Of a stretch of 64,000 nt of DNA, positions 57,763 through 61,094 are shown one piece after another. The notes under the pieces are model-generated. The model was given only the letters and a program-made list of their open reading frames with translations, had not been told where the DNA came from and did not search any database. This stretch comes from Gimesia chilikensis. Lineage in GTDB: Bacteria; Planctomycetota; Planctomycetia; Planctomycetales; Planctomycetaceae. The position numbers were made by a program, and so were the translations under genes. The DNA lies in NCBI RefSeq assembly GCF_007744075.1, contig NZ_CP036266.1:496001-560000 (forward strand). Reading direction: 5' to 3'. The first letter of the stretch is position 1. The number at the start of each line of letters is the position of its first letter.

Positions 57763-59058
57763 ATGGATGACAACAGTTTTCTTGCCCTGAAAGAATCATT
57801 ACAGACCATTGAAGAGACGGATCAGTTATTTTCATTTCTTGAGTCTCAGCAGACGTTCTCGTTCCCTGCTCTGGAGAACGGTTTGTTTCCCGCAGCCATC
57901 GCTCATGAATCGACGGGATATCAGAGCATCTGGGTCCGGGATAATATCCATGTCGCTCATGCATTGAATGCCGTGGGGAAAACGGAACCAGCAAGTAAAG
58001 CAGTCGCCACGCTGACAGAGTATTTTCTCAAGCATCGAGATCGTTTTGATAAGATCATTTCGGGGGAAGCAAATCCGAAAGAAGTGATGCAGCGGCCGCA
58101 TATCCGTTTTGACGGAAACACGCTGGGTGAAATCGATGAAAAATGGGCTCATGCTCAGAACGACGCACTGGGATACTTTGTCTGGTTGTACTGTCGGATG
58201 CTGGAGCAGGGACACCTGACGGCGTCCGCTCAATCTCTCGAACTGCTGGCGGCGTTCGTGCGCTATTTCGAAGCCATCCGTTTCTGGGAAGATGCAGACA
58301 GCGGCCACTGGGAAGAAGCACGCAAGATCGAAGCCTCCAGCATTGGTACTGTGGTCAGCGGGCTGATCGCTCTGAAGGAATATCTGAATTGCAGCGATAA
58401 CTGGGATGACTTGCAGCACCAGCAGACTCTGGTGACACCCGAGATGCTGGACTCTCTCATTGCACAGGGGCAGACGACACTTGAAGAGATTCTGCCTGCC
58501 GAATGCATACAGGCTGACTCTCTGCTGGCCCGAAAATATGACGGGGCGCTGCTGTTCCTGATCTTTCCCCTGGGGCTGGTCAAAGGAGAACTGGCAGACA
58601 CGATTCTGGAAGATGTCAGAACGCACCTGATGGGGGATTACGGAATCCGACGCTATCTGGGAGACTCTTACTGGTGTGCTGATTACAAAGAAGTCTTCAG
58701 CGAGGATGACCGCACGAGTGACTTCAGTGATGATCAGGCCAGCCGGGATCAATATCTGAAACCGGGTCAGGAAGCCCAGTGGTGCATTTTCGATTCCATC
58801 ATGTCGGTGATTTACGGCCAGCGATTTCTGGAATCAAGACAGGACGCTGATCTCGAAAAGCAGCGTTTTCACCTCGATCGCGCTTTGAATCAGTTGACGA
58901 CATCTGAGTGTCCCTTTGGTCCATATCGTTGTCCTGAGTCGTATTTTCTGGAAAAAGGAAAGTACGTTCCCAATGATATTACGCCACTGTTATGGACGCA
59001 GGGAAATCTGATGATGGCCCTGCATCAGTGGAAACAGACTTTAAAAGCACAGCAGTAA
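57763..59058 (+). CDS. GH15/phosphorylase kinase-like six-hairpin glycosidase
   Basis: 431 residues, ATG start. GYQSIWVRDNIHVAHAL and KWAHAQNDALGYFVWLYCRML are typical of the (alpha/alpha)6 barrel shared by glucoamylase-type GH15 enzymes and phosphorylase kinase alpha subunits. RDN and NDALG carry probable substrate or catalytic contacts. There is no signal peptide, so it works in the cytosol, perhaps on an alpha-glucan or glucoside. The exact reaction is not certain. It converges on the MnmE-like gene. Confidence 0.8.
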   Translation: MDDNSFLALKESLQTIEETDQLFSFLESQQTFSFPALENGLFPAAIAHESTGYQSIWVRDNIHVAHALNAVGKTEPASKAVATLTEYFLKHRDRFDKIISGEANPKEVMQRPHIRFDGNTLGEIDEKWAHAQNDALGYFVWLYCRMLEQGHLTASAQSLELLAAFVRYFEAIRFWEDADSGHWEEARKIEASSIGTVVSGLIALKEYLNCSDNWDDLQHQQTLVTPEMLDSLIAQGQTTLEEILPAECIQADSLLARKYDGALLFLIFPLGLVKGELADTILEDVRTHLMGDYGIRRYLGDSYWCADYKEVFSEDDRTSDFSDDQASRDQYLKPGQEAQWCIFDSIMSVIYGQRFLESRQDADLEKQRFHLDRALNQLTTSECPFGPYRCPESYFLEKGKYVPNDITPLLWTQGNLMMALHQWKQTLKAQQ

Positions 59059-59071
59059 GTAATACAGCTCA

Positions 59072-59107
59072 AGTTGCTGACAGGGGATTAAACCTCTGTC
59101 AGCAACT
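59072..59107. terminator. convergent hairpin overlapping the MnmE-like 3' end
   Basis: A 15-bp stem starts AGTTGCTGACAG and ends CTGTCAGCAACT, with one G-U pair. The MnmE-like stop is in the loop, and its last codons are in the right arm. T-runs are weak on both strands. Confidence 0.6.
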
Positions 59108-60257
59108 GTTTGATTAAGCGTGTGTAAGCCTGCTGGTCGTCTGCATCCAGTGCTGCTGCAGCCTGTTTCAAAAGTTCGATCTGGCGTGATGTGACTGGAA
59201 GAGCCGTCTCCTGGTCGGGGACTTCGGGAATCAGTTGTTCCACCAGTTTCTGCAGAAACTCATCGAGCCCCGCTTTTGTGACTGAAGAAATTCGAATCGC
59301 CTGTGGGGGAAGTGGTGCGCCCCAGCATTCGGGGAGGTCGGCTTTATGAGCCACGATCAGCGACTCGGGCCATTGAGTGAGCAGTCGGTGATCGTCTGGA
59401 TGCGCAGGTTGGCTGATATCGATCAGAATGACGCGGGCATCCGCGGCGTTCAGGATCTGCTCGGCGCGTTGGATTCCAGCTGCCTCCAGCTGTTCTGCTT
59501 CTGCCCGAATTCCTGCGGTATCAGAAAACTGGAACGGCCAGCCGTAGAGCGCCGTGGTCGCTGTCAGCACATCACGGGTCGTTCCCGCTTCGTTAAAAAC
59601 AATGGACCGTTCATAACCCAGGATCGCATTAATCAGACTGGATTTTCCGACATTCGGTCGACCGGCGAGTACGACATTCCAGGGACGGGTCAGGTGTTGT
59701 CCCAATTCTTTCCAGCGCAGCAGATCCTGAATCTGAGATTTCAGATGTTCTGAATCGAACGAGCTCTGTTCCTCGGGCAGAAGTGAGGCGAAAGCGGATC
59801 GTAGTAAGCCTTGCGATTGACACAGGAGAATTTCTGCTGTTCGAAACGTAGTGGCTGCCGTCAATGCTTCCTGGATTTCAAGCTCCAGGCCTGTCGCTTT
59901 CCGGCTGGCCAATGCCTGCCAGGTAAGAACGTCACAGCCCTGGGCCTCTAAATCATTCAGGATTCGATTCACCGCCGCCATGCCTCCATGACAGTGAATG
60001 TCAACGGTTTCAAAATCAATACGACAGAGAACCAGGTCTTCGGTATTAGAGGTTCCCCAGTATCCATAGACAATCTGGTTCACAGCCTGTTCGATCAGTG
60101 GTTTCTGATTGACGGCGTGAAAACAGGGATTTACCAGCGCATTCAGTGCAGCGGTTCCTCCCTGAACGCGAATCGTAGCGACAGCTCCTCTTCCGCGGGG
60201 GGTAAGGAGAGCGGCCTGGCAGGTTTGTTGAAACTGTTTTGGGGAATGCGTGGTCAT
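59088..60257 (-). CDS. MnmE-like GTPase without C-terminal Cys motif
   Basis: 389 residues, ATG start. The front LTPRGRGAVATIRVQG and the DIHCHGGMAAVNRIL segment match the MnmE (TrmE) N-terminal and helical domains. The G domain is complete: GRPNVGKSS (G1), DTAG in FQFSDTAGIRAEAEQLE (G3) and AHKAD (G4). MnmE normally is about 450 residues and ends in a conserved Cys-x-Gly-Lys; here the protein stops some 60 residues short and lacks it. So it may be a paralog with a different role than the usual tRNA wobble-uridine modification. It follows coaX by 6 bases. Confidence 0.82.
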   Translation of the reverse strand: MTTHSPKQFQQTCQAALLTPRGRGAVATIRVQGGTAALNALVNPCFHAVNQKPLIEQAVNQIVYGYWGTSNTEDLVLCRIDFETVDIHCHGGMAAVNRILNDLEAQGCDVLTWQALASRKATGLELEIQEALTAATTFRTAEILLCQSQGLLRSAFASLLPEEQSSFDSEHLKSQIQDLLRWKELGQHLTRPWNVVLAGRPNVGKSSLINAILGYERSIVFNEAGTTRDVLTATTALYGWPFQFSDTAGIRAEAEQLEAAGIQRAEQILNAADARVILIDISQPAHPDDHRLLTQWPESLIVAHKADLPECWGAPLPPQAIRISSVTKAGLDEFLQKLVEQLIPEVPDQETALPVTSRQIELLKQAAAALDADDQQAYTRLIKQLLTEV

Positions 60258-60263
60258 GCTGGT

Positions 60264-61094
60264 TTATTGAATCCCGCGAATCTGTTGTGCGACCAGTGCC
60301 AGCCCCTGCAGTGACAGGAGAGGTTCAAAGTGAGCCGATTCATCCAGGTGCGGAGCGAGCAGGGCTGAGCCGCCCCCGGTGAGCAGCACCAGTGGAGTTT
60401 CCCCCGATGTGGATTCCGCAAGTATCTGATTTGTGTGCTGAGTGATGAGTTCACGGACCGCACCGAGCTGCCCCCAGAACAGACCGCTGCGAATAGCATC
60501 TGTCGTGTTTTTGCCGAGTACCACGGGTTCAATTTGACGCAGATCCTCGACCGGAATCAGAGGGAGCAGGGCGGTATAGTCGTGTAATGATTTCGCGGAA
60601 AGTTCAAAGCCGGGTAAAATCGCTCCCCCGGCAAAGCAACCTTCGGTGCTCACAACATCGATCGTGGTGGCGGTCCCGGTATCGACGATGATCGCAGCCT
60701 GCGATGTCGATTTTAAACGGTTGGCGGCGACAGCGTTGAACAATCGGTCGATGCCCACTTTACGGGGTTCATCGACGGCAATCTCCAGAGGGAACTCGTC
60801 TGTATTCAGAACCTCCAGCGGATCGGGGAGGATAGATTCGGGCCAGTCATTGAGGACCCGTTTGATGCCATGCGGATTGGAACCCGCGACCGAACTCAGA
60901 CATGGAGTATCAGTGGGTTCGAGCCAGTCAGCGATCTGATCCCAGGGGAGAGGATCCTCAACCAGAATTGAGAGCGCATGTTCGACCAACGGAAGCTGAT
61001 GAGAGGCTCCCAATGGGAGCTCCGTCTTGAGCAGCACAAACTTGATGCGACTGTTGCCGACATCAATCACCAGTTGTCTTAAAAGTTGCGACAT
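60264..61094 (-). CDS. coaX: type III pantothenate kinase
   Basis: 276 residues, ATG start. LVIDVGNSRIKFVLL at the front, DEPRKVGIDRLFNAVAA in the middle, IVDTGTATTIDVVS and GGAILPGFELSAKSL are the CoaX hallmarks of the actin-like kinase fold. It phosphorylates pantothenate as the first step of CoA synthesis. It sits between xseB (24 bases upstream) and the MnmE-like gene (6 bases downstream), so all are probably co-transcribed. Confidence 0.92.
   Translation of the reverse strand: MSQLLRQLVIDVGNSRIKFVLLKTELPLGASHQLPLVEHALSILVEDPLPWDQIADWLEPTDTPCLSSVAGSNPHGIKRVLNDWPESILPDPLEVLNTDEFPLEIAVDEPRKVGIDRLFNAVAANRLKSTSQAAIIVDTGTATTIDVVSTEGCFAGGAILPGFELSAKSLHDYTALLPLIPVEDLRQIEPVVLGKNTTDAIRSGLFWGQLGAVRELITQHTNQILAESTSGETPLVLLTGGGSALLAPHLDESAHFEPLLSLQGLALVAQQIRGIQ

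Follow-up and report, generated by a model that had tools for sequence, protein, structure and literature searches.

The genome of Gimesia chilikensis encodes two MnmE paralogues, a short one (here called beta) located in the 64,000-nucleotide stretch analysed here (the window) and a full-length but degenerate one (alpha) located elsewhere. Judged from sequence, beta is probably one subunit of a split MnmE (a probability of roughly two in three), in which an obligate alpha-beta heterodimer would replace the homodimer throughout the Planctomycetota. The active sites of such an enzyme would be divided between the subunits: the folate pocket would lie in alpha together with the FCIGK relay helix, and beta would contribute a histidine in trans and also, for most members of the class to which Gimesia belongs, the only competent GTPase site. 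The positions of the features concerned are summarized in Table 1.

Table 1. Features of the beta locus and related genes in the G. chilikensis genome. Plain numbers are window positions; G000:C1 denotes the contig of this genome.
Feature	Position	Strand	Remarks
15-bp hairpin between convergent genes	59072..59107	.	beta stop codon in loop
Short MnmE paralogue (beta), ORF	59088..60257	-	389 aa
Switch II, DTAGIRAEAEQLEAAG, with R251, E258 and G261	59475..59522	-	equivalent to E. coli R275, E282 and G285
Switch I, GTTRD	59571..59585	-	T251, R252 and D253 equivalents in 74/74 beta
P-loop, GRPNVGKSS, with N202 (E. coli N226)	59637..59663	-	Asn in 73/74 beta and 57/58 alpha
H90-G91-G92 codons (E. 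coli H84-G85-G86)	59982..59990	-	His in 74/74 beta
coaX (type III pantothenate kinase)	60264..61094	-	Pfam Pan_kinase 3.6e-42; directly upstream of beta, co-oriented
Full-length MnmE (alpha)	G000:C1:3550062-3551402 (locus L003, 844-2223)
MnmG	G000:C1:1527407-1529194		857.8 bits
Der-like gene, separate	G000:C1:1083557-1084615		two G-domain hits in one frame

A short and intact MnmE paralogue

Beta has the same domain order as MnmE (TrmE; human GTPBP3), the tRNA uridine-5-carboxymethylaminomethyl(34) synthesis GTPase: a TrmE_N-like domain is followed by a helical domain, shortened in beta, into which the G domain is inserted. The P-loop GTPase domain is strongly detected by Pfam (MMR_HSR1, 7.5e-20), the TrmE_N score (29.2 bits) is just below the cut-off of 29.8, and the two NCBIfam MnmE equivalog scores are both below their cut-offs (154.7 versus 380 bits and 125.9 versus 252.6 bits). 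The top match among solved structures is MnmE (3geh), with Der/EngA second; because of this match and the TrmE-like N-domain near the Pfam cut-off, classification as a Der/EngA or Era relative was rejected. Der/EngA has a G domain related to that of beta; Der proteins carry two tandem G domains and, unlike beta, no TrmE-like N-domain. An AlphaFold monomer model of beta, based on a two-row alignment, was poor (pLDDT 54.5).

The G-domain motifs are unbroken, as originally predicted: GRPNVGKS, GTTRD, and DTAG are present, and HKAD replaces NKxD. The equivalents of N226, which we take to be the K+ ligand in E. coli, and of GKS, GTTRD, R275, and E282 are all found in the window copy. Beta is 65 residues shorter than the E. 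coli enzyme (389 vs 454 aa). The claim that the protein stops about 60 residues early thus holds for its total length and is too high for its C-terminal end, where about 34 residues are missing if the count starts at the final Asp of this motif, NKxD (D307 in beta and D338 in E. coli); the remainder of the deficit lies in a shorter N-terminal/helical part. The C-terminal swivel helix and the FC(I/V/L)GK sequence are both missing. A C-x-G-K end, whose loss had also been predicted, is absent from all three minus-strand frames through and past the stop codon as far as position 58994, and no frameshift within that stretch restores it.

The predicted 15-bp convergent hairpin is present, with 15 pairs on the plus strand (z scores of -5.2 and -4.3 for the plus and minus strands, respectively), and was matched by none of 200 shuffles on either strand. 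Its loop contains the stop codon of beta (59088-59090) and one of its arms the final codons, and the hairpin is probably a terminator shared by both convergent genes. This arrangement had raised the idea that the gene was recently shortened when the terminator formed, and the position of the stop codon in the loop would also suit a gene that is becoming a pseudogene. Such a history is hardly credible: of the 14 same-genus loci examined, four show the hairpin (those of this genome, G000, and of G001, G005, and G009), the gene ends at about the same place in the 10 hairpin-free loci, and it is kept throughout the class. In addition, none of 74 beta sequences (41 from the class, including that of the window, 20 from other classes, and 13 strongly diverged) contains CxGK within the last 60 residues. 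Because the 10 hairpin-free loci are equally short, the hairpin is not the cause of the shortening, and because it is limited to this genome and three close relatives among the 14 loci, it looks recently acquired rather than family-wide. Recent truncation, a frameshift, and a hairpin effect were therefore all rejected, given the lack of CxGK in the three downstream frames and the occurrence of the hairpin in 4 of 14 loci. The beta gene is real and intact, and its short end, which is neither damage nor a consequence of the hairpin, is a trait of the whole beta family, shared by all 74 homologues examined.

The four copies examined from one family, f52 (L139, L140, L145, and L150), have a longer C-terminus with IF..CL near the end and have also kept the SFTGED loop. 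The IF..CL sequence is possibly an eroded IF..FC.GK end.

The original prediction also linked beta to CoA and DNA-repair genes, which are represented in the window, according to Pfam, by coaX, xseB, and xseA. The first part stood: of 61 genomes, 39 have coaX next to beta in the same orientation (34 of the 56 from other genera), and the pairing reaches beyond the class. The pairing may reflect an old operon, with no mechanistic connection. As to the second part, xseA and xseB were found near beta in the four same-genus loci among 40, with one further xseB match elsewhere, in a BLAST search with the window genes that possibly missed distant copies; a functional link between beta and exonuclease VII was rejected on these counts.

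Distribution of alpha, beta, and MnmG

The genome consists of one contig of 8.29 Mb and contains, besides beta, a complete MnmE and MnmG. These two genes, together with the lack of CxGK in all 74 short relatives, bear out the alternative offered in the original prediction, namely that beta represents a distinct GTPase family. The full-length paralogue, alpha, has 459 residues, ends in FCIGK, and is encoded directly downstream of a YidC-type gene (yidC). Its TrmE_N, MnmE_helical, and GTPase domains exceed the Pfam cut-offs, and its NCBIfam equivalog score, like those of beta, is below the cut-off (237.5 vs 252.6 bits). It lacks the H84-G-G motif and R275/E282/G285, yet retains the FCIGK end. 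The alpha and beta genes are mostly far apart, with 2 of 38 same-contig pairs lying within 20 kb.

Beta matches were found in 56 of 59 relatives and in 292 of the 297 genomes sampled from the class (this genome included in both counts), and a copy 68% identical to that of the window is present on a contig of an uncultured Gimesia sp. The five genomes of the class without a match are all drafts of 130-650 contigs. In a sample of the phylum, 169 of 195 genomes gave a match when the threshold was relaxed to a level at which other GTPases pass as well. Confinement of beta to some lineages was considered and rejected, as the single-sequence search had overlooked diverged forms that were recovered by a profile search. 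The latter identified beta in 13 genomes previously without matches or with weak ones: 16 candidate loci were read, of which 13 were accepted and three dropped by eye (L225, HydF-like; L228, an alpha fragment ending in FCIGK; and L229, FeoB-like).

Seven alpha-bearing drafts (G132, G196, G201, G205, G317, G399, and G334) gave no beta even in the profile search, and these are the main evidence against an obligate partnership. Eleven further weak candidates, from G132, G196, G201, G205, G313, G317, G328, G334, and G399, were also read. Two of them, one in G313 and one in G328, are contig-edge fragments that resemble the C-terminal end of beta, so assembly breaks account for some of the misses; the other nine were rejected by eye as Obg-, Drg-, EngB-, FeoB-, or HflX-like. 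The profile search likewise gave no clear beta in the drafts G015, G027, and G032 (590, 530, and 1200 contigs, respectively), and the piece read from G027 is the end of an alpha gene.

Full-length MnmE was searched for in 42 genomes, 32 of them chosen because the first beta search had been empty or weak and 10 because it had been neither. No full-length match was obtained in 15 (G325, G329, G333, G351, G365, G372, G374, G377, G384, G389, G394, G396, G404, G344, and G359), and none of these 15 contains MnmG. Among 47 genomes, MnmG was present in 32, the same ones that have MnmE (full-length except in G313, where a contig edge truncates it). The wobble-uridine pathway thus appears to have been lost from several families of the Planctomycetota. 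In the same 15 genomes, no beta spanning the N-domain was among the matches listed for the profile (A1), a list that ended within the weak matches.

Complementary residues in alpha and beta

To compare the paralogues, 12 canonical MnmE, 58 alpha (31 from the class and 27 from other classes), and 74 beta sequences were aligned; the canonical set is a narrow sampling, consisting of the E. coli protein and 11 genes from plasmid records and covering three phyla other than the Planctomycetota. Columns shared by at least 11 of the 12 canonical sequences (76 columns) were regarded as near-invariant, and each was scored as kept (70% or more) or lost (30% or less) in alpha and in the 61 less diverged beta rows. 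Exactly four of the 76 columns combine loss in alpha with retention in beta, namely H84, R275, E282, and G285. Twenty show the reverse pattern: positions in the N-domain and the hinge helix, I133 among them, and the C-terminal F, C, G, and K. This complementarity was unexpected and had not been part of the original prediction. Of the others, 31 are retained in both, three are lost from both, and 18 fall between the thresholds.

His84 is found in all 12 canonical and all 74 beta sequences and in none of the 58 alpha sequences, and a small residue at the position of G18 shows a similar bias (canonical 12/12, alpha 20/58, and beta 72/74). The opposite bias is seen for R23 (12/12, 58/58, and 20/74, in the same order), F/Y73 (11/12, 54/58, and 9/74), an aliphatic residue at I133 (12/12, 56/58, and 12/74) or at position 129 (alpha 54/58, beta 17/74), and the FC(I/V/L)GK-type end (12/12, 58/58, and 0/74). 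In the G domain, the nucleotide-binding motifs are almost always present in both paralogues, and R275 (alpha 1/58, beta 55/74), E282 (14/58 and 62/74), and G285 (3/58 and 47/74) are biased towards beta. The window copy has R, R, Q, and T at positions 23, 73, 129, and 133, thus retaining the arginine at 23 unlike most beta, and H and A at positions 84 and 18.

In the folate complex of Thermotoga maritima MnmE, as described in PMC12397908, R20, Y71, V126, I130, and K450 are contributed by one subunit and A15 and H82 by its neighbour, and the terminal lysine is surrounded by its own Y71, R20, V126, and I130 together with A15 and H82 of the neighbour. The E. coli equivalents are F73, R23, I129, and I133 on the own side and G18 and H84 on the neighbour side. 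The division of residues between alpha and beta is therefore the own-side/neighbour-side division of the folate site given in that description. I133 is the sole own-side pocket residue that passed the strict scan; R23, present in 19 of 61 beta rows, narrowly exceeds the limit for loss, and the canonical set is itself variable at positions 73 and 129. The HGG motif, the E282 equivalent, and FC(V/I)GK are found together in one chain in the MnmE of T. maritima and C. tepidum.

Canonical MnmE is described as a constitutive homodimer formed via the N-domains, with both folate sites at that interface (PMC2749940). Since an alpha-beta dimer would possess one complete folate site and neither homodimer would possess any, a heterodimer is proposed. 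In addition to the own side of the methylene-tetrahydrofolate pocket, alpha would provide the C-terminal FCIGK swivel helix, which is thought to bring the one-carbon unit to the FAD on MnmG, and beta would complete this pocket across the N-domain interface with a histidine and a small residue, the equivalents of E. coli H84 and G18. An alternative reading is that beta has been neofunctionalised as a homodimeric GTPase with a separate task, perhaps connected through coaX with CoA synthesis, and that alpha alone modifies tRNA. The frequent coaX neighbour and the loss from beta of most folate-pocket residues and of FCIGK would agree with this reading, which nevertheless seems unlikely, as it leaves unexplained both the loss from alpha of H84 and, in most sequences, of R275, E282, and G285, the only four such columns among the 76, and the persistence of H84 in every beta sequence, whose own pocket is largely gone. 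The lack of beta among the matches listed for the 15 genomes devoid of both MnmE and MnmG also argues against an independent function.

According to PMC3695501, E282 is the catalytic residue of GTP hydrolysis by MnmE and is stabilised by R275, G285 is strictly conserved, and the G domains work through dimerising. In the proposed heterodimer, the G domain of beta would, in this class, supply the catalytic Glu and Arg for potassium-stimulated GTP hydrolysis, and that of alpha is predicted to bind GTP and to hydrolyse it poorly, so that the dimer would contain a single folate site and a single swivel helix, with hydrolysis mainly at one site. Glu is still found at position 282 in 14 of 58 alpha sequences, which counts against this division of hydrolysis. 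In the most diverged beta, E282 (kept in 4/13) and R275 are lost and the G domains have decayed; the hydrolytic role is therefore claimed for this class rather than for the whole phylum. The same G-domain residues could also be read as the mark of a regulatory partner that drives GTP hydrolysis by pairing with the G domain of alpha, without completing the folate site, in keeping with the retention of R275/E282/G285 in beta, their loss from alpha, and the dimerisation-dependent action of MnmE G domains (PMC3695501). We regard this as quite improbable, because the steadiest complementary residues are H84 of the N-domain and the small residue at 18, even where the G domain of beta has decayed.

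The beta copies of f40 (L218-L221) and f24 (L216 and L217) are very short and diverged (309-351 aa), with decayed switch II and an intact HGG motif. These copies suggest that the N-domain role outlasts the GTPase role.

In a quick maximum-likelihood tree of 76 rows, the alpha rows fall into one clade and the beta rows into another (SH-aLRT of 99 and 100, respectively); the tree leaves their sister relation unsettled. Within each half, related lineages cluster (f52 with G472, and f71 with f74), which is what an ancient split within the phylum would be expected to produce. Because lineages group alike in the two halves, loss events appear to have been few and old. The key losses are thus probably few ancient events, and the row counts given above are not independent observations and measure long retention.

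The split reading in relation to known systems

Pairs of related GTPase subunits that have unequal catalytic competence and share an interface are known, as in SRP-FtsY, Rag A/C, and alpha/beta-tubulin. These systems belong to other biology and, unlike them, the pair proposed here would also split a one-carbon cofactor pocket. Beta resembles MnmE in its H84-G-G, GKS, GTTRD, and R275/E282/G285 and in its co-presence with MnmG, and differs from it in lacking the swivel helix, FC(I/V/L)GK, F73, I129, I133, and often R23. Unlike the characterised, homodimeric enzymes, it is accompanied in its genome by a second, full-length but degenerate MnmE. Asymmetry of the MnmE dimer upon MnmG binding has been described in recent cryo-EM work (PMC12397908).

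Paralogy of MnmE in planctomycetes is already in print, since the proteomic report on Tuwongella immobilis (PMC8567305) lists two MnmE paralogues, both seen in two of three replicates of fraction S3, the only fraction in which MnmG was found; we infer that these paralogues correspond to alpha and beta. In the portions of the MnmE literature searched, no split or heterodimeric MnmE and no alpha/beta complementarity was found.

If the split reading is correct, labelling both planctomycete genes plainly as MnmE would be misleading, a single folate site, swivel helix, and hydrolytic site would be enough for tRNA modification, and the Planctomycetota would possess a natural asymmetric version of an enzyme so far described as a homodimer. 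MnmE is a model for GTPases activated by dimerisation, and a natural alpha/beta pair would let its roles be separated, i.e. which swivel helix acts, whether a second folate site is needed, and whether a single GTP hydrolysis per dimer suffices.
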